Shown here in pieces: positions 29,477-56,094 of a stretch of 64,000 nucleotides of DNA. The translations under genes and the position numbers were made by a program. The notes beneath the pieces are model-generated. The model worked only from the letters and a program-made list of their open reading frames with translations. It searched no databases and was not told the origin of the DNA. The stretch is taken from the NCBI RefSeq assembly GCF_000186865.1, contig NW_008705562.1, forward strand, positions 1,335,933-1,399,932, given 5' to 3'. Within the stretch, counting starts at the first letter, position 1. The number at the start of each line of letters is the position of its first letter. The stretch is from Aureococcus anophagefferens (Eukaryota; Sar; Pelagophyceae; Pelagomonadales; Pelagomonadaceae).

Positions 29477-29624
29477 ATCGCCCTGGCTCTAGGGCGTCGG
29501 CGACTCGTCGGGCAGCGTCGCATCCATCGCGACGGCTCCAGAAGAAGGCTGCCCTATGTTGGACTAGTTATTGAAGGGGAATGAAACCGATTTGCCCGGC
29601 TGCCCCGCCATCGACATCGAGAGC
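29477..29624. promoter_or_regulatory. bidirectional promoter between the NRPS and MFS-like genes
   Basis: 148 bp separate the NRPS start (29476) from the first ATG of the transporter (29625). A direct repeat (GGGCGTCGGC..CGACTCGTCGG) sits just inside the NRPS start (about 29449-29471) and again at about 29490-29511. Shared control of the two genes is inferred from this arrangement. Confidence 0.5.
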
Positions 29625-34161: not shown

Positions 34162-37074
34162 ATGGGCGAGCCGGAGGTGCGCGCCAAGCGGGCGAACTCC
34201 CTGGCAGGGCAGATGTTCAAGGCGGTGCTCGCGGACTCGTCCTCCGACGAGGAAGCGCTCGTCGACGCGCCCGCGGCGGCCGTCGCGCTGGCGCCGGACG
34301 ACGCGGAGGCAGCGGCCGCGGTGGACGACGCGGCCGCCGCCGCGGTGGACGACGACGCGCCCGCGAAACCGAAGGTCGCCTTCGCGGCGCCGGCCGAGCC
34401 GCCGGCCGAGGACAAGCGCGCGTCGCTCCGGGCCTTCGGCCAGCAGCAGAGCGCCAAGTACCTCGACACCAACTTTGCGCGGGAGCCGTCGCGCCTGCGC
34501 ACGGAGACCTTCTCGGCGACGCTCATCGACCAGCGCATGCGCCGGTCCATCTACATCGACCGCGAGCGGTCCGACGTGGGGCTCTTCGACAGCCCCATGG
34601 AGGACGTGAGGATGGTCCTCGAGCGCGAGGCGGCGAACGAGAGCCCGTCGGCGCGGCGGCGCGGCGAGCGGTGCTGCTTCGGCCTGCTCCCGGCGCCGCC
34701 CCTCGTCCAGCCGGACTCGAAGCTGCACGTGCGCTGGGACGTCGCGCAGGTGTTCTTCTTGGCGTACGTCGCGACGATGGTGCCCGTACGCGTGGCCTTC
34801 GAGTGGCCCGCGCTGGGGCTCTTCCTCTGGCTGGAGCTGCTCATCGACGTCTATTTCTGGCTCGACATCGTCGTGAACTTTTTGACGGTCGTGCACATCC
34901 GCAAGGGCTTCGAGCTGACGATGGTCACGGACCGCGCGGGCCGGGGCAGGAAACGAGTGCGAACTTCCGAACTTCAAAGGATCCTCTCTCGGTCGTTTTC
35001 CGCTCGTTTTGGCTGATTTTGGGACGAGCGATCATCTCTCGGAACGGTCTCGAAGCGTGGACGCTCTTCCGGGAACGAGCGCGCGCGGAACACTCACGTT
35101 GAAGCGATGTTGCATCACTCGTGTCCCGCCCAGGCGCGGGCATCGCGTGGCACTACGCGCGGACGTGGTTCCTCCTGGACCTCGTGGCGTGCCTGCCCGT
35201 GGGCTACGCCTACAGCATCAAGATGTACGGCTTCAAGGAGCTCAAATGCAACCTGGCGCCGCCGCTGGGCTGCGGCCGGGGCTTCGCGGGCGGCGGCGGC
35301 GCGCGCGAGACGAGCGGCTCGGCGTTGCGGCTCGTGAAGCTGCTGCGCATCTTCCGCCTGCTCAAGCTCGTGCGCCTGGCGCGGCTGAGCCGCTTGTTCG
35401 AGAAGTACGAGGACGAGATGATGTACGTCATGGGCTTCCTCCAGGGCGGCAAGCTCGTCTTCGTGCTGGTCTACGCGAGCCACTGGATGGGGTGCGTCTT
35501 TCTTTCGAGCGCGTTTGGAACGCGACCCACGACGGTAGGTGCTGCTACGCGCTCGTCTTCAAGTTCACACGCGGCGAGGTCACGGTGCTCGAGCGCTACG
35601 TCACGTCCGTCTACTGGGCCATGCAGACGATCACGACCGTCGGCTACGGGGACCTCCAGGACACGACGATCAACTCGCAGATCTTCTCGATCCTGTGCAT
35701 GGCCATCGGCGGGGCGGCCCGCGTCGCGGAACTACGTGGCCCCGGTTTCATGAAAAGACCCGTCCACAGGCGGCATCATGTTCGGCCACCTCATCACGTC
35801 CGTCTTCAACGCGCTGTCTCCCGAGACGCACGAGCGGCAGCACCAGGAGCTCGTCTCGGCGATCATGGGCTACCTCCGCGCGAACAACATCCCCCTCGCC
35901 GTGTCGCGCCACGTGCTCCAGCACGTCCGGAACGGCGTCCCGCGGCCGCGACGATGTTCGAGAGATGTGGGGCGGGAAAACAACAAAACTCGTCACCGAC
36001 GCACCCACGCAGGTCCGGAAGCAGAACTCGCGCCAGTACGTGGACCGCGACATGCTCGGCGCGCTGCCCAAGCAGCTGCGGGTCGAAATCTACGACTATC
36101 TGCGACCGTCGGCGTCCCGCGGCCGCGACCATTTTCGGGTGGGAAGACGATGAAACATCGTCACCGACGTGCGCGGTAGGTACCGCGACACGATCCTCGT
36201 GGCGCCCATCTTCAGCGGCTGCCGCGAGCGCTTCGTGAACCACATCTGCATCGCGCTCTGCCCCATCACGTTCCCCGTCGGCGACCACGTCTACGACAAG
36301 GGCGACGTCGCCGAGGAGGGCATGTACATCATCAGCAAGGGCGACGTCGCCATGCGCTACACGGAGTCGGCCGCGCCCTGGGAGGAGCCCGGCGGCCACG
36401 ATTCCGACGACTCGTTCATGGGCCGCGCGACGGTCTCGGAGGCGCGGCCGCCGGAGGCCGCGGCCGCGGCCGACGCGCCGGGCCGCTGGAGCTTCCTCGG
36501 TAAGAAGCCCCCGCCCAAGGCGCCCGCGGCGCCCGCGGGCCACCGGCCGAGCGGCGGCGGCAAGCGCGGCTCGCGCCGCGCGTCGATGACGCTGCGCACC
36601 GTCGACCTCGCGGACGGCCAGGTCTTCGGCGAGGCGGCGATCCTGGGCTACCCGCGGCGCATCGAGGACACGGTGGCCTGCACGACGACGTCGCTCCTGT
36701 CGCTCACGCAGGCGTCCATCGAGCACGCGCTCCACCTCGAGCCGCGCGTGCGGCGGCGGCTCACGATCATGTTCGTCGACCGGCTCCTCAACGCGCGGTG
36801 CGCGCGCGTTGAGGTCTGCGAGATCCTGCAGGACTGCGACCTCGCCTGGCTCCTCGACGCCGCCGGCGACGACGGGTGCGCCGTGGCGCTCGCGCCCGAC
36901 TGGCGCGACCGGCTCCACGACCCGGCGCTCCACCGGCGGGACGCGTCCTTCGCGTCGCGGCCGCCGTCGCTCTCGGACCCGCCGGACGCGGCGGCCGCGT
37001 CGGCGGACCTCGCGGAGCTCAAGCGCGACGTCAAGGCCATCCTCGCCCACCTGGGCATCGACGGGGCGGCGTAA
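34162..37074 (+). CDS. cyclic-nucleotide-gated-type cation channel, six exons
   Basis: Exons are 34162-34933, 35134-35491, 35539-35708, 35770-35924, 36013-36107 and 36180-37074 (814 aa). Every splice phase closes and the family sequence is continuous across each junction (TDRAGIAWHYARTWF, HWMGCCYALVFKF, MAIGGIMFGHLI, QHVRKQNSRQYV, YLRPYRDTILV). The N-terminal 150 residues are acidic and disordered. S1-S6 follow, with the pore YWAMQTITTVGYGDLQD, a C-linker and a cNMP-binding fold (DKGDVAEEGMYIISKGDVA, QVFGEAAILG) split by a basic insert (SFLGKKPPPKAP). The CNBD is more intact than in the channel at 6057. Intron 1 is a 192-bp introner. Introns 4 and 5 share another element. Introns 1 and 3 have GC donors. 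Confidence 0.85.
34942..35133 (+). mobile_element. 192-bp introner, copy 1 (forward), in the CNG-type channel
   Basis: Flanked by an exact 8-bp duplication GCGCGGGC (34934-34941 and 35134-35141). The ends are imperfect inverted repeats (CGGGGCAGGAAACGAGTG and the complement of ACTCGTGTCCCGCCCAG). The intron runs 34934-35133 (200 nt). Its donor GC is the first two bases of the left duplication and its acceptor is the element's terminal CAG. Splicing there restores the uninterrupted exon exactly. Block GACGAGCGATCATCTCTCGG at 35023-35042 is identical in all three copies. Confidence 0.92.
35492..35538 (+). other. intron 2 of the CNG-type channel
   Basis: 47-nt GT-AG intron (GTGCGT donor, GGTAG acceptor), phase 2. 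Splicing joins HWMG to CCYALVF, continuous through the S5-pore region. Confidence 0.75.
35709..35769 (+). other. intron 3 of the CNG-type channel, GC-AG
   Basis: 61 nt. GCGG occurs at the start of the intron and again directly after the CAG acceptor, so removal leaves ATCGGCGGCATCATG (IGGIM), the natural S6 sequence. The donor is GC; no GT in the region restores the frame. Confidence 0.7.
35933..36012 (+). mobile_element. 80-bp introner-like element making intron 4 of the CNG-type channel
   Basis: Exact 8-bp duplication GTCCGGAA at 35925-35932 and 36013-36020. The intron is 35925-36012 (88 nt) and uses the GT of the left duplicate as donor and the element's CGCAG as acceptor. It begins CGGCGTCCCGCGGCCGCGAC and contains TCGTCACCGACG near its end. 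Both blocks recur in the next intron. Confidence 0.85.
36108..36179 (+). mobile_element. related element making intron 5 of the CNG-type channel
   Basis: 72-nt GT-AG intron, phase 2. It contains the same CGGCGTCCCGCGGCCGCGAC block near the start and TCGTCACCGACG near the end as the previous intron, but a shorter, different middle. No exact flanking duplication remains, so it is probably an older or internally deleted copy. Confidence 0.75.
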
Positions 37075-37109
37075 ACGCTAGCGATGGTGCATGCGGCGTT
37101 ACCCCGTCC

Positions 37110-39113
37110 TCACGCGACGGGCACGGCCGCGGCGCGGTTCGCGCGCTTGATGAGGAGGTCCTGCTCGGCGATGGACTTGGAGAGGGCCAGCGCCGCGTCG
37201 GCGGCGCGGCGCTCCGCGACCTGGCACCGCTCCGCGAGGTGGAGCGCGTGGTCCTTCTGGGCCTCGTGGTCCGCGAGGGCCGCCGCGAGCCGGACCTCGA
37301 GCTGGCGCTCGTAGTCCGCGAGCTTGACGACCGTGGCGTGCTCGTCGGCGAGGCGCGCGTTCGCGTCGGACACGGCGGCGTCGCGGTCCGCGCCGAGCTT
37401 GAGGAGCTGGCCCCGGTGGCGGTCGACGGCGGCCGCGAACTGGTGCGCCGCGTGGTCCGCGGCGCGGCGCGCGGCGGCGAGCGCCTCCTCGAGCTTGCGC
37501 TTCTCCGCGTCGTGGGCCGCGCGCGCCTCGCTCGCCTCGCGGGACCGCGACGTCCGCGCCTCGTCGAGGTCCTTGGCGTGGCGCGCGAGCTCGCGGTCTC
37601 GGGCGTGGAGCTGCGCGGCGAGCTCCCTACACTTCTCCCGCGCGGCCGCGGCCTCGGCGGCCGCGCCGCGGTGCTCCGCGTCGTCGACGTCCGCCGCGTC
37701 CGTGGTGGCGGCGTCGCGGGCCGCCAGGGCCTCCCGGAGCCGGGCCTCCGCGCCCTTGGCGCGCGCCTCCGCGTCCGCGGCGCGCCGCTCCGCGTCGGCG
37801 CGCCGCTTCTCGAGCTGCGCGACCGCGTCCTCCGCGGCGGCGTCCGCGGACCGGAGGGCGCGCGCGGCGGCGGCCTCGGCGCGCCGCGCGGCGTCGGCGT
37901 CGCGGCCCGCGCGCTCCGCGCGCGCCTCGGCCTCGGCCATGGCCTCGTCGCGGCCGCGCAACTCGCGCTCGCGGTCGTCGACGGACTGCGCGCCGCGGGC
38001 CCGCTCGCGGTCCACGGCCTCGCGGATTTGTGCGGCGAGGTGCTCCGCCTCGGCGACGCGCTCGGCGCGCAGCCGCTCGAGCTCGCGCGCGGCCTGGTCG
38101 CTCCGCGCCTGCGCCTTGTCGCGCGCGAGCAAGGCGTTCTCGGCCTTCTCCCGGGCCTCGCGGCCGACGGCCGCGACGGACTCCTCGCGCGCCGCGTAGG
38201 CCGCGAGCTGCTTCTCCATGCCGCCCATGACCCGGAGCATGCCCGCGTTGTCCTGGCGCACGGTCTCGAGGTCGCGCGCCGCGCGCCGCGCGCGCTCGCC
38301 CTCGAGGTCGCAGAGCTGCGTCCGCGCGGACAGCTCCTCCTGGAGCTCGCGGCAGCGCGCGGCGGCGGCCTGGACCCGCGACCAGAGCTCGTCGCCGTCG
38401 GCCTCGAGGCGGCCCCGGAGCTCGTCGCAGACCCGCGCCTTCTCCGCGAGCTCGTCGCGGAGGCGGCCGTTCTGCCCGTGCAGCGCCGCCAAACCCTCCT
38501 TGAGCTCGCCGAGCTGGGAGTTCGCGGACGCGACCTCGGCGCCGTGCTTCACGTAGCGCGCCTCGAGGGCCGCCTGGGCCTCCCGCCGGCTCGCCTCGGC
38601 CTCCTCGAGCGCCGCGAGGCGCTCGCGGCACGCGCCGAGCTCGTCCGCGAGCGCGCCGTTCCTCGACGCCGTCGCGTCGCGCTCGCCGACGCAGCGGTCG
38701 AGCTCGCCCTGGAGCACGCTGCTCTGCTCCACGAGGAGCGCGTTCTCCGCCATGAGGATCTCCACGCGCTCGCCCATCTCGCGCGCGCGCTCCTCGGCGG
38801 CGCCGCCTAAACCCCGCGGGCCCGGGACCTCCGCGCCGCCGGCGTCGTCGCCCCGCGCGCCCACGGCCTCCGTCAGGCGCAGGTGCAGCTCCTCGTTCTC
38901 CGCGACGAAGGTCTCGGCCCGCTGCCGCAGCTTGCTGATGTCCTCGCGGGCGCCGCAGAGCGCCTCGTCGAGCTCGCGCACGCGCCGCTCCGCGGCGCCG
39001 ACGAAGGCGCGCGCCCAGGCCGGGGCCGACGCCGCGAGGTCCGCGACGCTCCGCAGGGGCTCCCCCTCGAGCATGCCCTGCGTCATCTTCTCGATGGCCT
39101 CGATGCCCGCCAT
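37110..39113 (-). CDS. long coiled-coil protein
   Basis: 667 aa from the first ATG (39113); a longer frame begins at a GTG (39140). Nearly the whole length is Ala/Arg/Glu-rich coiled coil (DISKLRQRAETFVAENEELH, ESSVLQGELDRCV, KCRELAAQLHARDRELARHA), with no motor, membrane or enzymatic domain. Likely a structural or centrosomal/cytoskeletal protein. The Ala/Arg bias comes partly from GC pressure, so database similarity would be unreliable. It is convergent with the CNG-type gene, 35 bp between stops. Confidence 0.7.
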   Translation of the reverse strand: MAGIEAIEKMTQGMLEGEPLRSVADLAASAPAWARAFVGAAERRVRELDEALCGAREDISKLRQRAETFVAENEELHLRLTEAVGARGDDAGGAEVPGPRGLGGAAEERAREMGERVEILMAENALLVEQSSVLQGELDRCVGERDATASRNGALADELGACRERLAALEEAEASRREAQAALEARYVKHGAEVASANSQLGELKEGLAALHGQNGRLRDELAEKARVCDELRGRLEADGDELWSRVQAAAARCRELQEELSARTQLCDLEGERARRAARDLETVRQDNAGMLRVMGGMEKQLAAYAAREESVAAVGREAREKAENALLARDKAQARSDQAARELERLRAERVAEAEHLAAQIREAVDRERARGAQSVDDRERELRGRDEAMAEAEARAERAGRDADAARRAEAAAARALRSADAAAEDAVAQLEKRRADAERRAADAEARAKGAEARLREALAARDAATTDAADVDDAEHRGAAAEAAAAREKCRELAAQLHARDRELARHAKDLDEARTSRSREASEARAAHDAEKRKLEEALAAARRAADHAAHQFAAAVDRHRGQLLKLGADRDAAVSDANARLADEHATVVKLADYERQLEVRLAAALADHEAQKDHALHLAERCQVAERRAADAALALSKSIAEQDLLIKRANRAAAVPVA

Positions 39114-39409
39114 CGGCGCGGCCGATGCGAACGCAATCACGATTCGAACTGTCTCCGGTGGGCTGCCACAAGCTGAAGTTGGCGCTGCAGCGAATGTTTC
39201 CGGGCGTGAAATCGTCGAGTTGTCCGCTGCTAGCGCGCCGTCGGGCTGCCCCTCGGTGCGCCGGCGCCGTCGGGTCGACCGTCGCCGGGTCGAGTCGAGC
39301 GGTCGGCGTTTGCCGTTTTCCGCGTGCGCCGCGGCCGGAGCGGCGCGGCGCTGCCCGACGCGCGGGCAGCCCCGGCGCTCCGTGCGGCCGCGACCGCGCG
39401 GCGGGCGCC
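39114..39409. promoter_or_regulatory. divergent intergenic region (296 bp)
   Basis: Spacer between a coiled-coil gene (minus) and a small membrane protein (plus). The left part is less GC-rich (CGCAATCACGATTCG..), the usual look of promoters in this window. No conserved motif was found. Confidence 0.35.
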
Positions 39410-39862
39410 ATGCCGACGCTCCCGAAGACGTCGAAGCGGCGCGCGCCGCCGCCGCGCACGTATCCGCCGCTCGCGCCGCGCGCCTTCTTCGTCCGCCGCG
39501 GCGGCGGCGACGACGAAACGAACGCGGACGCGGACGCGCCGCCGGCGGAAGAGCCGCCGACGCACTGGCCCGCGCGCGTCGCGTACCTCGCGCTCGTGCT
39601 GTCGCCCGCGTCGCTCGCCGTCATCCTGCTCCTGAGAAAACACGCCTGGTTCATGGAGCCGGCCACATTCTCCTACGACTTCGAGCGCCGCGTGAACGTC
39701 TACCGCGAGGAGGCCGTGTCGCCGCGCTACTTCGGCGCGCTCGCGGGCGCCCTTTGTTTCCTGATCTTCGTCATGTTCGTCGTCGTCGCCCTCGAGCCGG
39801 CGGACCCCGCGCCGGCGACGCGGAGACGACCGCCGCGGAAGAAGCGGCCGCCCGCGCGATAG
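39410..39862 (+). CDS. small two-helix membrane protein
   Basis: 150 aa from ATG 39410. There is a basic Pro-rich N-terminus, a short acidic stretch, and two hydrophobic helices (VAYLALVLSPASLAVILLL and ALAGALCFLIFVMFVVVAL) flanking an exposed loop (EPATFSYDFERRVNVYREEA). The tail is strongly basic (TRRRPPRKKRPPAR). This suggests a hairpin membrane protein with both termini on the cytosolic side. No family recognised. Its stop is 19 bp from the opposing UBA gene. Confidence 0.6.
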   Translation: MPTLPKTSKRRAPPPRTYPPLAPRAFFVRRGGGDDETNADADAPPAEEPPTHWPARVAYLALVLSPASLAVILLLRKHAWFMEPATFSYDFERRVNVYREEAVSPRYFGALAGALCFLIFVMFVVVALEPADPAPATRRRPPRKKRPPAR

Positions 39863-39881
39863 CGGCGGTCGCGCGACAGCA

Positions 39882-40693
39882 TTAGGGTTGCCCTCCGAAC
39901 AGGCTCTCCGCGGCCCGCGACGCGTCGCCGCCGTTCGCCTCGAGCACGGCGATGGCCGTCGCCGTGTCGACGCCGAGGGCCTCGAGGAACGCGACGGGGT
40001 CGTCGTAGCCGCCCGTGAGCGCCGCGGCCGCGTTCCGCGGCGCGCCCGCGGGGCTCACCCAGTCGGCGTCCTTCGCCGCGTCGTGGACATTCATGAGGAA
40101 CTCCAGCTGCTCGTCGCGCCGCGAGACCTGCTCCGCCGCGTCGCTCGCGTCGAGCTCGACGTTTTTGCGCTCGAGGAGCTCCTTCCGCAGGTCGTCGAGC
40201 TCCTTGTGGAGGAGCTTGATCTCCTTGTCCTTGGCCTCGGCGACCTTCTCCATCTTCCGGCGGTCGAGGAGGTGCTTCGCGTTCATCGTGCACTTCTCCC
40301 TGAGCGGACGCGCGGTCGGGGGGCGCGGCGCGTCGGAGGCGCCGGGACCGCGCATGTTGAGCACGCTCGCGCGGAGCGTCTCGTAGGTGAGCTTGCCGTC
40401 GCTCTCCTTCAACTGCTTCGCGAGCTTCTCCGCCAGCGCCTGCAGCTCCTTGACCCGTTCCTCGTCGACGACCTGTCGCGAACGCTCACGACGAGACGAG
40501 ATGGTTGGATCACGACCTGCTGCTCCTCGGCGCGCTCCTCGTCCGTCGGCGCCAGCGCCTTGAGCTGCTCCTCGAGCTCGACGACGCGCGCGGTCTTCGC
40601 CTCGAGGCTCGCGCGCGCCTCCAGGAGCGCCTGCTTCTTGTTTTTCAGCTCGACTTCCATCATCTTCGACTGCTTCTGCATGATCGTGAGCAT
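39882..40693 (-). CDS. coiled-coil protein with C-terminal UBA domain, two exons
   Basis: Exon 1 is 40517-40693 and exon 2 is 39882-40472, joined by a 44-nt GT-AG intron in phase 0 (255 aa). The coiled coil is continuous across the junction (DEERAEEQQ then VVDEERVKELQ). The C-terminus is a UBA three-helix domain (PVAFLEALGVDTATAIAVLE to AAESLFGG), which binds ubiquitin. The middle region has DRRKMEKVAEAKDKEIKLL. A possible ubiquitin-linked adaptor. The start ATG at 40693 sits in a frame that could extend upstream through another exon. Confidence 0.7.
40473..40516 (-). other. 44-nt intron of the UBA gene
   Basis: On the minus strand it starts GTCGTGATCC and ends GCGACAG. The exon after the acceptor begins GTCGTCGA, so GTCGT is repeated at both ends, a possible worn target duplication. 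Confidence 0.7.
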
Positions 40694-40920
40694 GGTTCCT
40701 CGTCACCGACTGCTTTGCAGCGTTAGCGTCCCATGTTAATGAAGCACGTCGTGCGGCGCTGGCACATCGAACAGGGAGAAGGCTGCCCCATCGCATTCAA
40801 CGTCGCCGTGTGCCACGGCATCGTGCTGCAGCTCCGCGTGGAGGCTTGTGGAGGACTCGCTGTGCGAAGTCGCGCGCCGCCGTCGAAGCAGCGCCGCCGT
40901 CGAAGCAGCTCGCATCGACG

Positions 40921-43236
40921 ATGGCGATGCGCCGCCTCGCACTGCTCGCCTGCGCGGCCTTGGCCGCCGCGCAGCTCTACGAGGACCACGACCACGTGCA
41001 GGAGTTCACGTCGTCGAGCGCCTTCGAGAAGGCGATCCTCGAGGACGACGCGGCCATGTGGGTCGTCCACTTCTACCAGAGCGGCGACGAGGACAAGGGG
41101 TCGCCCATGATGGCCGACGATTTCGCCGCGTCGGCGCAGGAGGTCTACGCGACGCTGGGCGTCAGGGCGGCCGCCGTCGACGTCAAGGAGAGCGGCGTCG
41201 CGAAGGTCGCCAAGCGGCTCAACGTACAGCAGGTGCCGCTCGTGCTCGGCTTCGGCGGCGCGTCCACCAAAAACCCCTACACGGGCAAGAGCGACCGGCC
41301 CGTCGTCGCCTTCGAGCAGGTCATGACCGAGAGCGGCTTCTCGAAGACGTCGTTCAAGCGCTGGGTCTCGTCGAAGGTCGTGCCCGGCGACGCCGTGTCG
41401 CGCGTCGAGTCCGAGGGCGCCCTCGCCAAGGCCGGCGCGCCCCTGGCCGTGCTCCTTACGGAGCGGGCGACGACGTCGGCGCTTGCGAAGAGCATCGGCG
41501 TCGCGTTCCGCGGGCGGCTCTCGGTCGTCGAGGTGCGCGTCGCGGACGAGCCGTCGCCCCTCGCCGGCGCGCTCAGCCGCGACGGCGACGAGCTGCCCGT
41601 GCTCCTCGCGGGCGCCGACGCCTTCACGTCGCGGGAGGCCCTCACGGCCTACGACGGCGACCTGAAGGACCGCGGCGCCGTCGTGGAGTGGCTCGAGGGC
41701 TTCGCGTTGAAGGAGAAGAAGGCGTCGTCGTCCGCCAAGGCCGAGGCCGCGGCAGAACCCGCGGAGGAGGCGGGCTGGCCCGCGGGCTACGTCCTCGCGA
41801 CGGCCAAATCCGCCGAGGACTACGCCAGGCTCGTCGTGGACGCGGAATCGGCCGTCGTCGCGTACGACAGGGCCGCGGGCCCCGGCGCGCTCGTGGGCAA
41901 GGTCCTCGACTTCGACGGCTCCGGCGCCGTCGTCGCCGTGGAGGTGGACTGCGACGACTGCGCGCCGGCGGGCCCCTACCGCGCCTACGGCGCGGGACCG
42001 AAGAAGAAGAAGCCGCTCTCCGCGGGCGACGACGCCGCGGCCGCGTTCGACGCCGCGGCCGGCACGCTCGCCGCCGACGACGTCATGGTCATCGCCGGGT
42101 CCATGGACATGGACGCCTTCATCCGCCGCGCCATCAGCGCCGGCGAGGGCGACGCGCCCGTCGGCGTCGCGCTCTTCACCAAAAAGGGCGACGTGTCGCC
42201 CGCGATCCGCGCGCTCGCGACGACGCTGGGCAAGCACGCGGGCGTGAAAGTCGCGCAGTACTCGAACCCGGAGCCCGGCGCCCTCGAGGCCTACGGCGTG
42301 CGCAAGCTCCCGTCCGTGCTGGCGTTCTTCGCGCAGGCGCCGGACGAGACGACGCCCATGGACCAGCGCGCCATCGGCGCGGCCCAGTACGACCGCCGCC
42401 AGTTCGGCCCGCCGTCCTTCCGCAGTTTGGTGGCGTTTTCCCTGGACGTCCTGGGCCAGCTCGCGCCCGACCTCGCGAACGAATTGGACGACGGCTTCCA
42501 CGGCGCGTCGAACTTCGACGCCGCGGCGGTCAAGAAGGAGAAGGCCGCGCGCGCGGGCGGGCCCGCGCCGAAGAAGGGCGGCGCCGTCTTCTCGTCCTTC
42601 AACGACGCCGACGCCTGGGCCGAGAGCTGCGGCGCCGAGTCGCCCTACGCGCTCTGCGCGGTCGCGCTCCTCGACGAGCACGGCCGGTCGACGTTCGCCG
42701 ACGAGCTCGCCGTCGCCGAGGGCGTGGCCAAGGCGGAGCAGCCGTCGCCCTTCGCCTTTGGCTGGGTCGACGGCGCGTGCTTCGCCGACTTCTCCGCCGC
42801 GTTCGACGTCTACGAGAGCTCGCTCCCGACGCTCGTGGCCTACGCGCCCAAGAAGGAGCGCTACGCGGCGCTCGTGGGCCGCTACGCGGCGGCCGACGTC
42901 AAGTCCTTCCTCCGCGGCGTCGTGTCCGGCCGCGTGCCCACGGCGCCGCTCCGCGCGGCGCTCGCGGCCCCCACCGGCGGCGACTGCGGCGCCGTCCACG
43001 CGGCCAAGTTCGCGCCGGCCGAGGAGGACTCCCTCGACGACGACTTCATGGCCGAGCTCCTCGCCGAGGAGGCGGCCAAGGCCGCGGAGCTCGAGAAGGA
43101 GGCCGCGGAGGAGAGCAAGCGCCTGAAGAAGGAGGCCGCGGACGCGAAGAAGAAGAAGAAGGCGGCGCCGCCGGAGGACGCCGCGCCGAAGAAGAAGAAG
43201 AAGAAGAAGAAGACGACGAAGAAGAAGGAGCTCTAG
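40921..43236 (+). CDS. ER lumenal thioredoxin-fold (PDI-like) protein without CxxC
   Basis: 771 aa from ATG 40921 with a clear signal peptide (MAMRRLALLACAALAAAQ). At least two thioredoxin-like folds are visible: the first (about 20-130) has WVVHFYQSGDEDKG where the active site would be and LNVQQVPLVLGFG as the cis-Pro strand; another (about 375-470) has YGVRKLPSVLAFF. Neither has a CxxC pair, so it is probably not an oxidoreductase but a chaperone-like PDI relative. The C-terminal 70 residues are Glu/Lys-rich, ending in poly-Lys and KKEL, close to but not a standard HDEL/KDEL retrieval signal. Long AAG repeats encode the tail. Confidence 0.75.
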   Translation: MAMRRLALLACAALAAAQLYEDHDHVQEFTSSSAFEKAILEDDAAMWVVHFYQSGDEDKGSPMMADDFAASAQEVYATLGVRAAAVDVKESGVAKVAKRLNVQQVPLVLGFGGASTKNPYTGKSDRPVVAFEQVMTESGFSKTSFKRWVSSKVVPGDAVSRVESEGALAKAGAPLAVLLTERATTSALAKSIGVAFRGRLSVVEVRVADEPSPLAGALSRDGDELPVLLAGADAFTSREALTAYDGDLKDRGAVVEWLEGFALKEKKASSSAKAEAAAEPAEEAGWPAGYVLATAKSAEDYARLVVDAESAVVAYDRAAGPGALVGKVLDFDGSGAVVAVEVDCDDCAPAGPYRAYGAGPKKKKPLSAGDDAAAAFDAAAGTLAADDVMVIAGSMDMDAFIRRAISAGEGDAPVGVALFTKKGDVSPAIRALATTLGKHAGVKVAQYSNPEPGALEAYGVRKLPSVLAFFAQAPDETTPMDQRAIGAAQYDRRQFGPPSFRSLVAFSLDVLGQLAPDLANELDDGFHGASNFDAAAVKKEKAARAGGPAPKKGGAVFSSFNDADAWAESCGAESPYALCAVALLDEHGRSTFADELAVAEGVAKAEQPSPFAFGWVDGACFADFSAAFDVYESSLPTLVAYAPKKERYAALVGRYAAADVKSFLRGVVSGRVPTAPLRAALAAPTGGDCGAVHAAKFAPAEEDSLDDDFMAELLAEEAAKAAELEKEAAEESKRLKKEAADAKKKKKAAPPEDAAPKKKKKKKKTTKKKEL
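43145..43232 (+). repeat. AAG trinucleotide tracts (poly-Lys)
   Basis: Several in-frame AAG runs, the longest at about 43188-43212, encode the Lys-rich tail of the PDI-like protein. Length variation between strains is likely. Confidence 0.8.
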
Positions 43237-43380
43237 GGGGTGGTGAGTGGCGTAACTTTCTCTCGGAGACGTCCGGAGACGTGGGCTGTACGGCACTGTA
43301 GGAGGGGAATATATAGCAGCCTGCCCGCGCTTTGCGTCTCGACGGCGTACGTTGTACTTCTTGTTGCTAGCCATTATTAC

Positions 43381-44715: not shown

Positions 44716-44802
44716 ATTATCGAGAATCAGTCAGCAAAGGCTCGCGCTCGGTGATAAATTTGTGTATTTGAACGCGGGGTCTGTAGAACTGCGTCAATTT
44801 AT

Positions 44803-44809
44803 GTTCAAC
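44803..44809 (+). promoter_or_regulatory. GTTCAAC motif upstream of the SAP-like gene
   Basis: GTTCAACATT, identical to that at 15603, lies 88 bp upstream of the minus-strand start at 44715. Candidate promoter element by recurrence. Confidence 0.3.
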
Positions 44810-44878
44810 ATTGACCTTTACCGGGGACCCGCGATTTCGACGTCGATGGCGACGGCGCCCGACGCCTCGGCGTTGCCG

Positions 44879-44909
44879 CCCCCGTTGTTCTCCCCCAACC
44901 CTTCCCCCC
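44879..44909 (-). other. G-quadruplex-type motif
   Basis: On the minus strand the G runs are 6, 3, 5 and 5 with loops of 2, 2 and 8. This satisfies the common G3+ quadruplex pattern. It lies between two minus-strand genes, 164-194 bp upstream of the SAP-like start. Confidence 0.6.
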
Positions 44910-44960
44910 TGACGAGGGGGAATTCTTAAATCCAGTCTAGATTTGTGGTAGCTTCCTAAT

Positions 44961-47033: not shown

Positions 47034-47547
47034 AAGCTAGGGCAGTCCACGATAACAATCCTTACCGGGAGCCGGTTTGGCAGACCGCAAGGTAAATGTT
47101 GGCTGGCTGGCTGGCTCGGTCGCTGACAGCCACCCATTTCTTCAATGTAGACGTTGCATGTGCAAATCTTGCGATTTTCGTGCGGGAATCATGTCAAAAT
47201 CTAGTTAGGCGCCCGGAGTGGCCCGCCGGGGGTGACGGAAGCGCGAGCGCCGACGCGCGTGGCCGGCGGCCAGCCGGTCGCCGCAGCCGCCCCAGGACGG
47301 CGCGGCGCGCCGTAGGCGCGCGTTGTAGAGGTTGTAGCGAGGGGTCGTTTCGTGGACTGGACGTCCCTGGCTGGCTGGCTGGCTCGGCCCCCGGCGGCTG
47401 GCTGCGGTCTTGGCCTGCCCTTGCCATAAGAGCGCTCGCTGAGTTCAAGGAGGTAAACATAAATGCCTTGAAGACTTCAAGTGGGTTCCAGTTCGAACCC
47501 CGCAAACTGCGGGGCAATGCTGGGCAGCCCTGCTCCGCTCGCGTAGC
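47034..47547. promoter_or_regulatory. 514-bp divergent intergenic region with GGCT microsatellites
   Basis: Between the propeller-NAT start and the ankyrin-channel start. It has two GGCT-repeat tracts followed by CGG (about 47099-47117 and 47370-47390), an AT-richer stretch around 47130-47210 and the inverted repeat CTTGAAGACTTCAAG (about 47467-47481). No RNA gene was recognised. Confidence 0.4.
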
Positions 47548-50500
47548 ATGCCCGACGTCGACGACGCGGCGCCGCCGCGCCGCAAGGTGCGGCGGCGCGA
47601 GAAGGAACGCCGGCCGCAGCGGTCGCTCAGCGCCGAGCCCGTGAAATCGCTGAGCGACGGCGAGGCGGCGCCGGCGCAGACGCCCCTCCCCCGCACGCCC
47701 GCGGCCGCGACGCCCGGGCGGGGCGCGGCGCTCTTCCGCAAGATCCTCACGCCCAAGAGCGCGGCGAGCAACTGGCGGACCCTGCGCCAGGCCCTGGCGA
47801 CCATCGGCGGCGACCGCGCGTGGTACAGCCTGACGCGGCACCAGGGCGGCCCGTCGGCCGAGGACGCGACCGCGGCGCTGCTCGAGCTGAGCGGCATCGT
47901 GCACACGTGCCGCGTGGCGCCCTTCGGCGCGCCCATGCCCGGCGAGGGCGTCTACGGCCGCGTCTGGCGCGTCCTCAGTGGCGTCGCGCTGCCGTCCGTC
48001 GACGGCGCGGCCGCGGCCGGCGGCGCCGCGCCCGGCCCCGCGCGCATCGCGCTCCTCGAGCAGCACGACGACCGCTCGCTGAAGATCTTCCGGGAGCGCG
48101 TCGCCATCGCCATCCGCGGCCGCGCGACGGCGCTGGTGATCACGGAGAAGATGGCGCGCCTCGTCGACGAGCGGCGCCGCGAGTCGCCGCACGACGCTCT
48201 CGTCGACCTCAACGAGCTGCCCTTCCCCGTCGTCGTGCTGCCGGAGTCGGACAACGAGTTCCTGCGGGACGAGATGCCCCAGTGGTCGAACACGCGCCTC
48301 GACGGCTGGCGGGACCTCGAAAAGCGCTGCGCGGCCGCCGGCGGCGCGGAGCCCAAGGAGTCGAGCCTCGTGGCCCGGGAGGCGCTCGCGGCGGCCCACC
48401 GGGGCCACGACTTCATCCTGGACTCCTTCGACGACCGGGGCGTGGATGTGTTGGGGGCGCGCGACGACCGCGGGCGCACGGCGTTGATGCTGGCGGCGAC
48501 GTACGGGAGGCTGGGCGTCGTGAAGAAGCTCCGGCAGCTCGCGCAGCGCGCGGAGGACCGCGGCGCGGGCCGCCGGGACCGGGCCAACGAGCGCGACATG
48601 CGCGGCCGCACGGCGGTCATGCACTGCGTCATCCGGAACCGCGTCGACGTGCTGGCGGCGCTCCTGGGGCCCGCGTGGCGCGCGGACCCGCGGTCGCCGG
48701 ACGCCGCGGGTTTGAACCCGCTCAAGGCCGCGGTGAAGAACGGGCGCAACGAGGCGGCGACGGTGCTGCTGCGCCACGGCGCCTGGGTGCGCGAGGACAC
48801 GGCGGAGCCCTGGGCCCAGGACGTCTACCGCTTCGCCGTCGAGAAGGGTTTGTGCGACGTCGTCCGCGAGTTGTACGAAGCGCGCGCGAAGCTCCTGAGC
48901 TACTCGCGCTACGACGGCAAGGGCGATGTGCTGGATATGGACCTGGGGTCCGCCGTGGGCAGCCCGCTGCTCCACGCGATCCGGCGGCGGCGCCACGACG
49001 TCGTGGACCAGCTGCTCCGGCCCTACCGGGACGCGCGCGGCGCGACGTTCCACCTCTGCAACGTCGACGCGAAGGACGGCGCGGGCCGCCGCGCGCTCCA
49101 CGAGGCGGCGATTTTAGGGGACGTGGGCCTGGTTTCCCGCCTCATGACCCACGTCCAGGGCTGGCCGACGATCTGGTACGGCGGCGAGAAGCGCGTGTCG
49201 CTGAACGCGCAGGACGACCGGGGCTACTCGGCGCTGATGCACGCGGCGTCGCTGGGCTACGTCAAGGTCGTGCTGGCGCTCTGCGACCCGCTGAACCGCT
49301 CGGGCGTCGCCGAGGACATCGACGCGGACCTCGCGGAGCACGCGACGCGACGGACGGCGCTCCACCTCGCGGCGATGTGCGAGATCGAGCAGCCGAAGAC
49401 GATCCGGTCCCTCTGCGTCCACGGCAAGGCCGAGGTCTCCGCCAAGGACAAGTACGGCCACACGCCGCTCCACCTCGCGTCGGACCGGAAGAACGTGTCC
49501 ATCATCCGCGCGCTGCTCGACCACAACGCGGACGTCGACGCGCGCGACATCAACGGCAACACGCCCTTGCACTCCGCGGCGCGCGTCGGCGCGACGGGCG
49601 CCGTCATGGTGCTGCTCCAGTCCGGGAGCCACGTCGACACGGCGAACAAGTGGGGCGACACGGCGCTGCACATCTCGCTCATGCGCTACCACACGAAGGA
49701 CCAGAAGCTCAAGCTGTCGACGCTCGGCTGGCTCGACGAGGACCAAGCGTACGGGGAAACGTCGCTGCGGGAGAAACTCAGCGGTTTCGGCCACGGCACG
49801 ATGCGCCGGCTCGGCGACCTGGCCCACGGTGACCTGCCGGCGGCGTTCGGCGGCGGGCGCGAGCGGCGGCTCTCGTCCGTCGTCGAGGTCGCGGACGTCG
49901 CGAAGAAGGGCAACTTCGAGGGCGTCGTCGAGCAGCTGCTCAACGGGAACGCGGACCTGGGCCGGAGGAACAAGCACGACCTGCCCGCGTTCTCCGTGCC
50001 CCTGCAGGAGCACTACTTCAACATCAAGAAGGACGACTTGGAGGGCGTGCTCCACGCGCGCCACGCGGCCGTGTTCCGGTCGCCCGCGTCCATCGGCCGC
50101 GCCATCCTGCGGTTCCTCTGCGCGCCCTTCGCGGGCGCGCCCACGAACCAGCACAAGACGCGCGTCGCGGACGCGGAGACGCCGAAGGAGGGCGAGACGC
50201 CGCCCCACGCGCTGAAGCGCCGCGACACCTTCGACGACGCGGACTCGCGCAGCGACCACCACGGCGAGGCGCCCTACCACCTGCTCTTCGGGAACAAGCG
50301 CGTCCAGAAGGCCGTCGGCACGGTGTGGCTCCGCAAGTGCTTCGCGGGGTCCGTGCTCATGCTCGCGTTCTACCTCGTCTTCGTCGCGTGCCTCACGACG
50401 CTGGCCACGGTCGTCGTCACGGGCTCGTCGGGCAGCTCCTTCGCGTCGTCGGCGGAGTTCGCGCGGGGGCTGCGCGACGCCTTCGCGGAGGACGGCTTCG

Positions 50501-51276
50501 CGGCGAGGACGGCGGCGCGGAAGCCCGCGAAGGGGCCGCACCCGTTCGACGGCGAGGCGCTGGGCTTCGACCAGGTCACGAACGCCGACGACCTCTTCCA
50601 CTTCCTGGAGACGACCTTCGCCGCGGCCCTCGACGCGCCGGCGCCGGAGCGCTGGTCCGGCGACGGCCAGGAGTCCATCGAGGTCGACGGCCGCGACTTC
50701 CTCCCGGGCTTCGGCGTGCTCGTGGGCCTGCCGCGGCTCATGCAGTGGCGGTCGCGCGCGAACCTCTGCGACGTGCCGGACCGCGCCGAGGGCATGGTCG
50801 CCTTCTGCTTCCGCGAGCCGTCGAAGCCCAAGGGGCGCAGGCACTGGACGGCCGCGGCGTTCGGCGGCCGCGGCGCCGCGCGGCCGCTGTCGCGCGGCGC
50901 CTACGGCCCCGGCGCGTCCGACGACGACGGCGCCGTGCCCGCGGCGGCGCTCCGGGGCTACACGTGGCGGAGCGGCCGCCAGCTCGGCCGCCGGGGGCGC
51001 AGCCGCGCGCTCACGTACGCGACGTACCCGGCGGGCGGCTTCGCGGTGGACCTCCCGCGCGCCGCGGCGAACCGGAGCGACGTGCTGGCGAGCCTCGCGG
51101 CGAACGACTGGGTCGACGCGGCGACGCGGGCCGTGGACCTGCGGCTCGTGGTCTACAACGCGAACGCGAACCTCTTCTGCGCGCTCCACTTCGTCGTCGA
51201 GTTCCCGCCCGAGGGCGGCGGCGGCATCCCCTACGTCGAGTCGCGCGTGGCCCGCGTCTGGCCCTACCTGGCCACG

Positions 51277-51307
<31 letters not shown>

Positions 51308-53906
51308 ACGGCGCGGGCGACGGCGGCGTCGTGCTGTGGCTCGAGGTCGCGTGCTTCGTCTTCGCGTGCTTCTTCTTCGTCCAGGAGTTCGACCAGGCGG
51401 TCAAGGAGAAGTACTCCTACCTGACGAACCCCTGGAACATCATCGACGTCGTCTTCTTCGTGCTCGTGGCGGCCTACGCGCTGACGCGCGTCGAGCAGGT
51501 CCACGACGTCGACGGCGACGACGTCGACTGGAACGCGCGCGACGAGGTCGTGCCCGTGGACCGCGCCTTCGCGCTCGCGGACCGCCACATCATGATCCTG
51601 AGTTTTCTGTGCTGGGTGAGCTGGCTGCGCATCTTAGAGTACCTCCGGGTCTGGAAGCGCGCGGCGATCCTCGTATTGGAGATCACGTACATGGTGCAGC
51701 ACCTCACGGTCTTCGGCGTGCTCATGCTCATCGTCTGCATGGCCTTCGCGTCCGCGGAGCACATCATGTTCGCCTGGTCCGACCCGCACTACAACACCAT
51801 GGTGTCGGCGCTGGGCATGAACTGGGGCTCCGCGTTCGGCGAGGTGTCCTACTGGGAGATCCTGACGATGGACGGCGCGGGCACGGGCGCCTTCCAGCTG
51901 CTGAGCGTGCTCTACCTGCTCATCGTCGTGCTCCTGCTCATGAACCTGCTCATCGCCCTGCTGAGCGAGCAGACGGTGAAGGCGCACGAGCGCTCGGCCA
52001 AGTACTGGTGCTTCGTGCAGCTCGGCATGGTCACGCACCAACGCGACTCCTTCGTGTCCCTCCTGGGCAACGGCATCGCCCGCACGTTCCGCCGCGCGGC
52101 CTTCGCCGACGCGGGCGCCGCGCGCGACTTTGGCGCCTACGGGGTCATGATGGAGAAGCTCGAGGCGCGCGTCGACAACGCGATGGACGTCGACCGCGAC
52201 GCCGCGGGCCTGGCGCCCGCGCAGAGGAGCCCGCGCGTCGCCGTCGCCGCGACGCCCGCGCCGCCGGTGACGCCCCTCGACGAGGGCGCCGCGGCGATTC
52301 TGAAGGGGGCCAAGGACGCGAACGGCGGCGGCACCGCGTGCCTCATGCTCTGCAAACGTCTACTGGACAGAAACGAGCCCTGGCCCGACTACGCGACGTT
52401 CCTGCGCACCCACGTCGGCGCGCTGTACCCCGAGATCGAGTACTTCAACGGCCAGGACCTCAAGGAGGACGTGGGCGCGTCCGAGCCAGGGCAGCAAAAG
52501 AGAGCGAAATTCCCAACTTCAAAGGCTCATATCTCGGCCGTTTTCCGCTCGTTTCGGCTGATTTTTGGACGAGCGATCATCTCTCGGAACGATCTCGAAG
52601 CATGGATGCTGTTTCCGGAACGCGCGCGCGTGGAACACTCACGTTGAAGCGACGTTGAATCACCCTTGTGCTGCCCAGGTCCGAGCAGCACGACGCGGCG
52701 TCGCGCGAGCGGTCGGAGCGCATCGAGTCCCTGTGCCTCGTCGCGAAGCTCTTCGGCAAACACCGCGGCGGCTGGAACGAGTGCAAGACGGGCAATGCGC
52801 CGCTGTCCGACGCGGATTTGACGTTCCTGCGGGAGGAGCTGCTGGAGCGGGTCGTCGCGTCGCCGCAGAACGACGCGCGGACGCGCGCGGAGAAGCTCGA
52901 CAACCTGTTCTGCTACCTGGCCTGCTGCACGGTGGGCAAGATCAAGGCCTTCGCCGACGACGTCGCGCTGGAGACGCAGTTGGAGTCCGTGGACCACGAC
53001 CTGATCTTGCGGAACGCCATGTCCGCGTGTCCGGGACTGCTGCCGTCGTACCAGCGCCTCGACCAGGGCCCCGACACCGTCTACCTCGTCGCGTCCACGG
53101 CCTTTAACCTGGGCCAGTTCCTGCAGGGCGAAAGCTTGCCGGCGTCGCTCGCGCCGCTGAAGCATTTGTGCAAGTCGGACCCGTCGCTGCTCCGGTTCAC
53201 GCTCTTCTCCTGGATCGCGCGCGTGCCGGCCTTCACGCGGCTCAAGTTCCTGTTCGACGGCGCGAAGGTTGCCTGCGAGCACCTCTTCGAGTTGGAGAAG
53301 GAGGACTCCACGGAGGTCAAGGTCTACGACAAATTCCTGAAGCATCACGCGAAGAAGCTCGACATCCCGAAGGACGACCGGCGCCAGGGCGACCGCCACC
53401 TCGTGCGCCTGAGCATGATGCTGCGGGCGAAGGCCAACGAAGTGCCGCGGCTGCGGCGGGCGCTGGACATGCTGGAGCCCGCGACGCGCGCGCTGCTCGT
53501 CGACGAGCTCAACAAGTCCGGCGTCGACGACGGCTGGGCCATCCTGGTCTACTACGCGCCGGATCTGCTGCGGAACATCCTGACTTTGGACAAGCAGAAC
53601 CCCGACTCCGACGGCACGAACGGCGTCATGCACGGGCTCGTCCTTTTGGCGAAGGTGTTTCGGGAGTCTCGAGCGAGGCTGGATAGACACCTGGGCATCG
53701 GCGTCTACACGGTCTCCGTCCACTCGCTTTCTTCCAAGGCCGCGACGAAGGGCATGACGCTCAATCGCTTCCTCGACGAGTCGGCCTTCGTGCTCGAGCA
53801 CATGGGCGACGAGGGCTTGGTGAACACGAAGGAGTGCAAGGACCACTTCGCCAAGTCGCACCCTCCGTCCGACCACGGGCGGTCGCCGGGGAGGATCCGG
53901 CGTTAA
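47548..53906 (+). CDS. ankyrin-repeat TRP-like ion channel, two exons
   Basis: Exons 47548-52478 and 52679-53906 give 2052 aa; the phase-2 junction restores GASEQHDAASRE. After a basic N-terminus and an unassigned region (about 60-300), about a dozen ankyrin repeats run to about residue 800 (GHTPLHLASDRKNVSIIRAL, GNTPLHSAARVGATGAVMVL). A six-helix channel follows: S1 about 926 (VLMLAFYLVFVACLTTLATV), a long extracellular loop, S2-S5 about 1261-1410, a pore-like GMNWGSAFGEVSYWEILTMD and S6 LLMNLLIALLSEQTVKAHE, as in TRP channels. The C-terminal 400 residues (exon 2) are helical and unassigned. A calcium-permeable sensory channel is likely; the stimulus is unknown. Confidence 0.85.
52487..52678 (+). 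mobile_element. 192-bp introner, copy 2 (forward), in the ankyrin channel
   Basis: Exact 8-bp duplication GTCCGAGC at 52479-52486 and 52679-52686. The intron is 52479-52678 (200 nt). It uses GT from the left duplicate and the element's terminal CAG. The ends are CAGGGCAGCAAAAGAG and the complement of CTTGTGCTGCCCAG. The shared block GACGAGCGATCATCTCTCGG is at 52568-52587. Confidence 0.92.
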
Positions 53907-53975
53907 TGTGGGCATGGGCGTTTTGTTTCCACGGCGTCTCATGAAAGCGGCTAGTCCCGGCATCAGTTTTCCCTT

Positions 53976-53982
53976 GTTGAAC
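53976..53982 (+). promoter_or_regulatory. GTTGAAC motif upstream of the 5'-nucleotidase gene
   Basis: GTTGAACTACAACA, 86 bp before the ATG at 54068, nearly matches GTTGAACCACAACA at 5952. Confidence 0.35.
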
Positions 53983-54067
53983 TACAACACTACTTCAAGT
54001 TTCCCGTCAAGCAGTCGATCGATCACTCGTCGATCACCACGAGCCGCGCCACGACATCCTGTTCGAG

Positions 54068-56094
54068 ATGCGCGAGATGCGCGCGCTCCTGTGCATCACG
54101 GCTCTCGCGCAGGCGTTCCTGCACGCGCCGCGGCGAACGATCCGCCGGCAGACGATCCGCGCGACGGCGAGCGACGACGACGAGGGCTTCAGCATCGCCG
54201 GCGACGAGGAGGAGGTGAGCCTCGACCTCGTGGATCTGCTGCGGGCGCCCCCGGACGCGGCCCCGAACCGGAACCGGAGCGTCGACTACTTTGGCGAGTC
54301 GACGTCGGAGCAGGACCAGGAGTGGTCCGAGGAGGCGGACCTCGGTGCGACGGGCGAGACGCTCGAGGAGGCGCTCGCCGCGCTCGGCGGCGCGCGGCCC
54401 GCGGACGCGTCGGCCAAGGTCTTCTGCAGCCGGTCCCTGAACCTGCGGGGCATCTCGGTCATCGGCTACGACATGGACTACACCATCGTCCACTACAAGT
54501 GGCGCGAGTGGGAGCTGCTGGCCTACGAGTGCACGAAGCGGGTCCTCGAGGAGATCGGCTTCCCCGTGGCCGACCTCGAGTTCGACAAGGACCTGGCCTG
54601 CCGGGGCCTCGTCATCGACAAGGACCGGGGCAACTTCCTGAAGATCGACCGCCACGGCTTCGTGCGCCGGGCCATGCACGGCGACGCGCGCCTCGAGGGC
54701 AACGAGCTCGACGCGCTCTACGGGCGGACGCAGGTCGACCTGCGGTCGAACCGCTTCTCCTTCCTCAACACGCTCTTCAGCGTCTCCGAGGGCGTCATGT
54801 ACGCCCAGCTCGTGTCGAAGCTCGACTCCGGCGCGCTATTTCGCGACGCGTCGCCGCCCTTCGACGCGAGCAGAGTCGCCAACTACGCGGACCTGCACCG
54901 CGCCAGGGCAGGAAAAGAGTGCTTCAAGTTATCTTCAACATGAGTGTTCCGCGCGCGACCGTTCCGGGAATAGCATCCACGCTTCGAGAACGCTCCGAGA
55001 GATGATCGCTCGTCCAAAAATGAGCCGAAACGAGTGGAAAACGACCGAGATATGAGCCTCCAAAGTTGGAAATTTCGCACTCTTTTCCTGCCAGGCACCG
55101 CGCGGTGACCAAGGCCCTGGGCCGCGCGCACGGCGGGGGCGGGGGCACGCCCTTCGGCATCAAGGAGGCCGTCGTCCGGGACCCGGCCAAGTACACGCAG
55201 CGCGACCCGGACCTGCTGCGGGCGACGCTCGGCGACCAGCGGACCGCGGGCAAGAAGCTGGCGCTCATCACGAACTCCGACTGGTGGTACAGCAACACGA
55301 TGATGACCTTTGTGTGCGGCGGCGACGACTGGCGCGACCTCTTCGACGTCGTCATCGTCTCCGCGCGGAAGCCGAGCTTCTTCACGACGGAGAAGCTGCC
55401 GTGCTACGAGGTCGTCACGGGCGCCGCGGAGACGGCGGACGGCGCGCCGTTGCTCCGCGAGGCGCGGACGATGGCCGCGGGCCGCGTCTACTGCGGCGGG
55501 TCCGCGCGCCTCGTGGAGAAGCTCTTCAACGTCCAGGAGGACGAGCTGCTCTACGTCGGCGACCACATCTTCATGGACGCGAACGCGGTCAAGGCGTCGA
55601 TGCGCTGGCGGACGGCTTTGGTCGTCCAGGAGCTCGAGGCGGAGATCGAGGCCGCGCGACGCGAGCGCAAAACGGGCGAGCGCATCGACGACATGCTGCG
55701 GCGGAAGGACGACCTGTCCGAGCACTTCAACGGCCTGAAGAACTCGCTCACGCGCTACGCGGACGGCGCCGGCGCGCCGTCGCCGCCGCACGCCGTCGAC
55801 GAGGCCTCGGCCGCGCTGGCCCGGGACCGCGCGCGCGTGCTCCTGGGCGCCATGAAGGACCTCGACGGCGAGCTCGCGCCCTACCTCTACGACGAGGGCC
55901 ACACCTTCAACAAGCACTGGGGCTACCTCACGCGCGCGTCCCACAACGACAAGAGCCACCTCCAGCGCCAGATCGAGAAGTACGCCGACATCTACTGCGC
56001 CAAGGTCACGGACCTCTACAAGTACACGCCCTACCACTACTTCCGCGCCGCGCCCCAGATCCTCGCCCACGAGAGCGACCACGCCCACGACTAA
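54068..56094 (+). CDS. HAD-superfamily 5'-nucleotidase (NT5DC-like), plastid-type presequence, two exons
   Basis: Exons 54068-54894 and 55095-56094 give 608 aa; the junction reads ADLHRAVTKALG. The N-terminus is a signal peptide followed by AFLHAPRR, the heterokont plastid cleavage pattern. HAD motif I is IGYDMDYTIVHYK with the nucleophile and acid Asp. Motif II is ALITNSDWWYSN. The C-terminal motif is YVGDHIFMDANAVK. These match the cytosolic purine 5'-nucleotidase/NT5DC family, which dephosphorylates nucleoside monophosphates. Substrate and compartment are inferred. The gene is interrupted by an inverted introner. Its stop is 59 bp from the opposing gene's stop. Confidence 0.88.
54903..55094 (-). 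mobile_element. 192-bp introner, copy 3 (inverted), in the 5'-nucleotidase gene
   Basis: Exact 8-bp duplication GCACCGCG at 54895-54902 and 55095-55102. The intron is 54895-55094 (200 nt). Its donor is a GC from the left duplicate and its acceptor CAG comes from the element's other inverted-repeat end (TTTTCCTGCCAG). Relative to copies 1 and 2 it is reverse-complemented; the shared block lies at 54995-55014 on the minus strand. Because both ends carry the same repeat, either orientation supplies an AG. Confidence 0.92.

Follow-up and report, generated by a model that had tools for sequence, protein, structure and literature searches.

The window analyzed here is a 64,000-nucleotide stretch of the Aureococcus anophagefferens genome (contig NW_008705562.1, positions 1,335,933 to 1,399,932 of the forward strand), in which a K+ channel-like gene, an ankyrin/polycystin-type channel gene, and a 5'-nucleotidase gene each harbor one copy of a 192-bp element. 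Copy 1 (34942 to 35133) is flanked by the 8-mer GCGCGGGC at 34934 to 34941 and 35134 to 35141, copy 2 (52487 to 52678) by GTCCGAGC at 52479 to 52486 and 52679 to 52686, and copy 3 (54903 to 55094) by GCACCGCG at 54895 to 54902 and 55095 to 55102, with all of these 8-mers read on the plus strand. A preliminary description of this DNA is correct to the base in its coordinates, in the length of 192 bp, and in the exactness of the 8-bp duplications. The 20-base block that it regarded as common to the copies is exact in all three, though on the minus strand in copy 3; it has three exact occurrences in the window, whereas 0.01 would be expected at up to three mismatches. Copies 1 and 2 point the same way, with the interior on the plus strand (class A), and copy 3 is reversed, its interior lying on the minus strand and inverted relative to the gene (class B). 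The inverted-repeat ends are also present, as a terminal inverted repeat of about 18 bp. A BLAST search of the window with the copies returned these three full-length places only, and further introner families were not seen in the window with the criteria used, among which one screen was insensitive (its G+C filter missed copy 1).

The first copy of each duplication and the adjoining element together make up a predicted plus-strand intron of 200 nt: intron 1 in the K+ channel-like gene (34934 to 35133, GC-AG, phase 1), intron 2 in the polycystin-type gene (52479 to 52678, GT-AG, phase 2), and intron 3 in the 5'-nucleotidase gene (54895 to 55094, GC-AG, phase 2). The donor would come from the first copy of the duplication, and it would be GC in two of the three cases; the second copy of GCGCGGGC is kept in the exon. 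RNA folding of the predicted introns gave z values of -1.05, -0.08, and -2.93 for copies 1, 2, and 3, respectively. Taking out one 8-mer and the element (200 nt) leaves open frames through all three genes, among them the 5'-nucleotidase frame at 53981 to 56094 on the plus strand (PF05761), and homologous proteins fit the junctions, in line with the earlier claim that excision restores the exon to the base. That claim was made for three unrelated genes, which is apt for the 5'-nucleotidase gene relative to the channel genes; the latter are two different genes that both carry the Pfam domain Ion_trans.

The agreement with homologues was followed across each junction. The 5'-nucleotidase neither gains nor loses a residue at the junction in comparison with its relatives P0001 to P0005 (57 to 95% identical), and the alignment of the polycystin-type protein with P0122 (520 of 568 residues identical) runs straight through the junction of intron 2; the source of P0001 and P0122 may be intron-free genomes or transcripts. 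The K+ channel is gapless at the junction of intron 1 against KCNH5, with a gap of two residues not far upstream, and against HCN3 it has two one-residue gaps beside the junction, making the homologue support for the predicted junction of copy 1 weaker than that for copies 2 and 3. Around intron 2, 340 aligned residues are all identical to those of A. anophagefferens JL722_10667, with a single 13-residue gap. This deposited model uses the same acceptor and a different donor, which speaks against the splicing predicted here; because it lacks 13 residues (52440 to 52478, just upstream of intron 2) that P0122 keeps, its donor probably lies 39 nt too far upstream. Elsewhere in the K+ channel-like gene, the frame shifts from frame 2 to frame 1 at about 35480 to 35500, near HWMGCVFLS, with no obvious introner there, reflecting either a sequencing indel or another intron.

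A genome-wide search, as proposed in the preliminary description, revealed a large family. In 49.05 Mb (86 contigs), the 20-base core of this family (family 1) has 1401 exact matches, 685 on the plus and 716 on the minus strand, and the reversed control has none. We sampled 99 distinct exact-core copies including the three in the window, most of them taken in order along contigs C1 and C2 and a few by similarity to copy 1. Copies occurring mainly without 8-bp duplications had been named beforehand as evidence against the mechanism; such a duplication is present in 90 of the 99 copies (76 perfect, 12 with one mismatch, and 2 with two mismatches), and 68 of these 90 are exactly 192 bp long. The duplications of the other nine do not reach the threshold; on visual inspection, several of these copies are introns whose duplications have diverged, and a few have internal deletions or a duplication. 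The bases beside the 8-mer do not repeat, ruling out a longer duplication as the source of the end bases. At L037:1080-1258 lies a relative of family 1 that has diverged heavily and is very rich in G+C, which suggests that old copies drift towards host composition.

Read in gene sense, most copies have the layout GYNNNNNN-C(A/G)GGGCAG...CTGCCCAG-GYNNNNNN. The element ends in AG in all 90 copies with a duplication, a count that is partly built in since the copies were oriented by their AG end; the start of the duplication and the frame test described below are independent of that choice. The duplication starts with GC in 54, GT in 35, and GA in 1 of the 90 copies, so that GY is found in 89, compared with an expectation of about 20% (p ~7e-61). 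At the mirror end of the 8-mer, RC occurs in 27 of 90 copies, close to the 22% background (p 0.055), and the GY constraint is thus one-sided, as splicing requires; a symmetric target preference would not give such a pattern and is not favored as its cause. Among the GY donors, GT is preferred about 2.4-fold (35 of 89, compared with 21% by availability; p 7e-5). The AG ends and the GY duplications, along with the rejoined frames, point to predicted splicing in which the acceptor would come with the element and the donor from the duplicated exon. One family 1 copy, L133 (G000:C1:858839-859359), is an exception, being antisense in or beside a gene and having a duplication that does not start with GY.

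To score the rejoining of the reading frames, the three window genes served to train a codon model, which was applied to 87 copies: of the 90, two were dropped for short flanks and one because its ends were ambiguous, and three of the 87 lie in the training genes themselves. The upstream and downstream flanks, scored separately, give the same strand and phase in 84 of 87 copies, and they agree in none of the 87 when 1, 2, or 4 extra nucleotides are removed as a control. The combined score places 85 of 87 copies confidently in coding sequence, without exception on the strand that the element ends predict, and a stop is absent from 82 of these 85. The intron phases of the 86 copies scored on the plus strand are 0 in 31, 1 in 22, and 2 in 33. 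In the same test, the confidently coding proportion of 98% exceeds the 78% found for 1353 window positions outside the training genes (p 2e-7) and the 67% found for 1361 positions near other copies (p 1e-12). Under random insertion followed by a splice filter in exons, about three-quarters of the surviving copies would be expected to be noncoding, an estimate that assumes half of the orientations and a fifth of the 8-mers to be spliceable in exons; as the copies depart from this, either insertion favors coding DNA or noncoding copies are lost fast. Against a strict coding rule stand the two copies that are not confidently coding and the antisense copy L133. The latter is one of 16 further core matches, assigned by eye to family 1 (12) and family 2 (4; see below), among which the frame test covered L133. 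Enrichment of introners in genes is reported for 161 of 175 genomes (PMC9860276).

The same organization recurs in a second family (family 2), with a length of 203 bp, the ends CTGTGTGGAAATC...GATTTCCACACAG, and 1015 exact core matches genome-wide (control, 0); it was noticed at L013:1930-2132, L037:2442-2643, and L100 to L129, and no copy was seen within the window. The two families clearly have related interiors and differ in their terminal repeats. A duplication with at most one mismatch flanks 28 of 30 copies, all 28 of which read GY...CAG (14 GT, 14 GC) on the strand chosen by coding score; the ends form almost perfect inverted repeats in which either strand offers an AG, and the frames rejoin in 27 of the 28. 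Family 2 retains T at the left-end position corresponding to one at which T is seen in 0 of 25 cases in family 1. Selection against T at this position, by which AG would be kept unpaired in the stem formed by the inverted ends, is not supported: family 2 has the T in 22 of 28 copies, and A-to-T changes are rare here (5.8% of changes), so its absence in family 1 is unremarkable (p 0.23).

We interpret each copy as an introner, namely, a short nonautonomous DNA transposon with inverted ends of about 18 bp that inserted into a coding exon, duplicated 8 bp, and is predicted to be spliced, and we give this interpretation a probability of about 0.93. At the level of sequence, the duplication, the inverted ends, and the restoration of the exon upon removal of one 8-mer and the element are demonstrated. 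The spliceosome would remove the 200 nt, using as acceptor the AG at the element end and as donor the GC or GT that happens to start the duplicated 8-mer; on the gene strand the inverted end reads as a pyrimidine tract followed by CAG, so that the transposon end would double as the acceptor. Insertions with a non-GY 8-mer or with an AG facing the wrong way would be lost by selection, and the transposase would act in trans. Several features by which introners are recognized are found: many similar copies occur as predicted introns in unrelated genes, the 8-bp duplication is constant, the ends are inverted, and, with L133 excepted, one splice site is carried and the other co-opted from the duplication, with the exon exactly restored. 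The transposon-to-intron mechanism invoked in the preliminary description is therefore supported, fitting the three copies and nearly all of the sampled copies genome-wide. It is not new, since introners of this species are already in print: Huff, Zilberman and Roy (2016) reportedly described introners of A. anophagefferens and Micromonas pusilla that carry one splice site and take the other from the duplication. What is added here are numbers and a modest puzzle of orientation. Raw sequence without gene annotation supports the genome-scale making of ready-to-splice introns by transposon insertion, and splice selection is separated from target preference inside the 8-bp duplication. With 1401 and 1015 exact core matches, the two families amount to a natural assay of the donors that this spliceosome accepts, in which GC donors are predicted to be widely used even as GT is favored relative to its availability.

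The puzzle is that the interior, of which at least two haplotypes exist, can point either way in the gene (class A in 51 and class B in 36 of 87 copies), whereas in family 1 the outermost bases track the gene and not the interior. With the ends read inwards, position 2 and its mirror carry the same letter in only 1 of 90 copies. One explanation, to which we give an even chance, is that the two classes descend from several source elements, each with one spliceable orientation, whose interiors were mixed by gene conversion. It agrees with the strong clustering of the classes on the tree, where parsimony requires 15 class changes compared with 29 in shuffles and the well-supported branches force only 3; it also agrees with the state of the ends, the left and right ends of a copy being alike in 77 of 90 cases at position 9 and in 70 at position 11 (neither value was reached in 2000 shuffles), from which it follows that exchange between ends or copies does happen. 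A tree with class B as a single clade is rejected at p-AU 0.0033, although support is weak for most branches. Against several sources, the step from A to B needs, if no inversion is involved, a matched pair of changes, and the 90 copies include neither of the possible intermediates (T...A and A...T in the body frame); in addition, B ends are found on both interior haplotypes (TGC in 16 and CAG in 13 of 38 class B copies; CAG in 40 and TGC in 1 of 52 class A copies).

A single inversion between the terminal repeats would turn A into B in one step, which would explain the missing intermediates, and we consider it about as likely as several sources with gene conversion. The fuller proposal, in which the ends are fixed relative to the gene (CA...AG) and the interior flips between the inverted ends of about 18 bp, in place or during transposition, and in which insertion, to judge from the near absence of noncoding copies, is moreover aimed at coding exons and not random with later filtering by selection, is tentative, and we rate it as rather unlikely in this combined form. 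If it were true, one intron site could exist in two orientations with its splice sites unchanged. Inversion via the terminal inverted repeats of insertion sequences is described in Wolbachia (PMC3004938) and resembles the present case in that the interior is flipped between inverted ends; however, those elements are bacterial and are not introns, and the flip here is deduced from end states and not from alleles. Fixed ends with a flipped interior were not found reported in the open-licence literature, a scope outside which Huff et al. 2016 falls.

The two orientations also bear on a spread through RNA, in which an excised intron would enter another transcript by reverse splicing and return to DNA by copying, a route suggested for the introner-like elements of fungi. 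The confidently coding position of 85 of 87 copies, in the spliceable sense, fits such a route, but neither the 8-bp duplications (90 of 99) nor the inverted ends are expected from reverse splicing, and the interiors lie both ways relative to the gene (51 and 36 of 87). The fungal elements spread by reverse splicing have neither duplication nor inverted ends (PMC9860276) and presumably one orientation only, so that they differ from the present copies in all three respects; given the duplications and the inverted interiors, this route is strongly disfavored and very improbable. Ordinary unspliced transposon insertions disrupting genes or sitting in them would need no splicing to leave the mobile-element signature, but they are scarcely credible in view of the one-sided GY (89 of 90, compared with about 20%), the AG end (90 of 90), and the frames that rejoin in 84 of 87 copies.

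The introner interpretation can be compared with the published systems as far as their descriptions extend. The A. anophagefferens introners in print share with ours the species, introns of about 200 nt (a characteristic length near 210 bp is given in PMC9481584), and duplications and inverted ends, both of constant length (PMC7789003), a likeness that is one of description and not of sequence; a review (PMC10228655) attributes to Huff et al. the co-option of splice sites and the insertion of elements in either orientation. The splicing motifs of the A. anophagefferens elements are stated to be canonical (PMC7789003), whereas most donors here are GC (54 of 90), a point that counts against our reading. 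Similarly, GC donors reach at most 50% per family in PMC9860276, compared with 60% here. Fixed outermost bases around an interior lying either way are not mentioned in these descriptions of A. anophagefferens introners. In the Symbiodinium example of Gozashti et al. 2022 (PMC9860276), the acceptor is likewise carried, the donor comes from the duplication, and the ends are inverted; in Aureococcus sp. family 4 of the same work, both splice sites belong to the element and the transcript gains 12 bp, whereas it gains nothing here. Amoebophrya introners likewise have inverted repeats and flanking direct repeats, but the latter measure 3 to 5 nt and the splicing motifs are very varied and noncanonical, in contrast to the 8 bp and GY-AG of the present copies (PMC7789003).

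The identity of family 1 copies to their class consensus averages 94 to 95%, the median end branch on the family tree is 0.021, and the paired copies of the duplication differ at 16 of 720 positions (about 2%, with the nine diverged cases left out), indicating that the family was active fairly recently. The recent activity claimed in the preliminary description thus stands for the family and is weak for the three window copies, which are only 83 to 87% identical to one another, compared with family means of 89 to 92%, and fall on different branches of the tree; they are not a tight cluster and do not represent a single tight burst.

The transposon origin of the elements was approached through their ends. 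The hAT superfamily has an 8-bp duplication and CAGGG-type ends. Family 1 has the 8-bp duplication and, in most copies, the gene-sense left end CAGGGCAG or CGGGGCAG; its right end is CCCAG and not CCCTG, the inverse of a hAT-type end. An autonomous partner would be an element of 1 to 10 kb with CAGGGCAG or CTGTGTGG ends and a transposase. Searches with the hAT (PF05699) and KDZ Pfam profiles gave no matches, yet their controls gave none either, and the MULE profile had no match with controls detected in 3 of 14 cases. DDE_Tnp_4 had four matches, and the terminal repeats are absent from these four loci (about 3.2 to 3.5 kb each, beyond which more distant ends would be missed). A family 1 end without an adjoining family 1 interior occurs at 7 places, compared with 3 for the reversed control, and by eye each of the 7 is an introner copy; a looser end pattern occurs at 104 places (reversed control, 23), and among the places listed about 7 are not introner-like, no two of them close together. 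The corresponding search for family 2 ends gave 15 places (control, 0), again all introner copies by eye. An autonomous element with matching ends and a transposase was not found by these searches, a result that counts against the introner interpretation and for which the estimated chance of a miss ranges from about 7% (looser family 1 filter) to 25% (family 2 filter) if the ends are exact, and an element with changed ends would always be missed.

Other features were seen in the window. An unbroken open frame of 4378 codons runs along the minus strand at 16352 to 29488, in a genome that is rich in introners. Overlapping direct repeats occupy 14886 to 15504, a 74-bp inverted repeat pair lies at 60391 to 61217, and the window ends in a self-complementary stretch (63891 to 64000).
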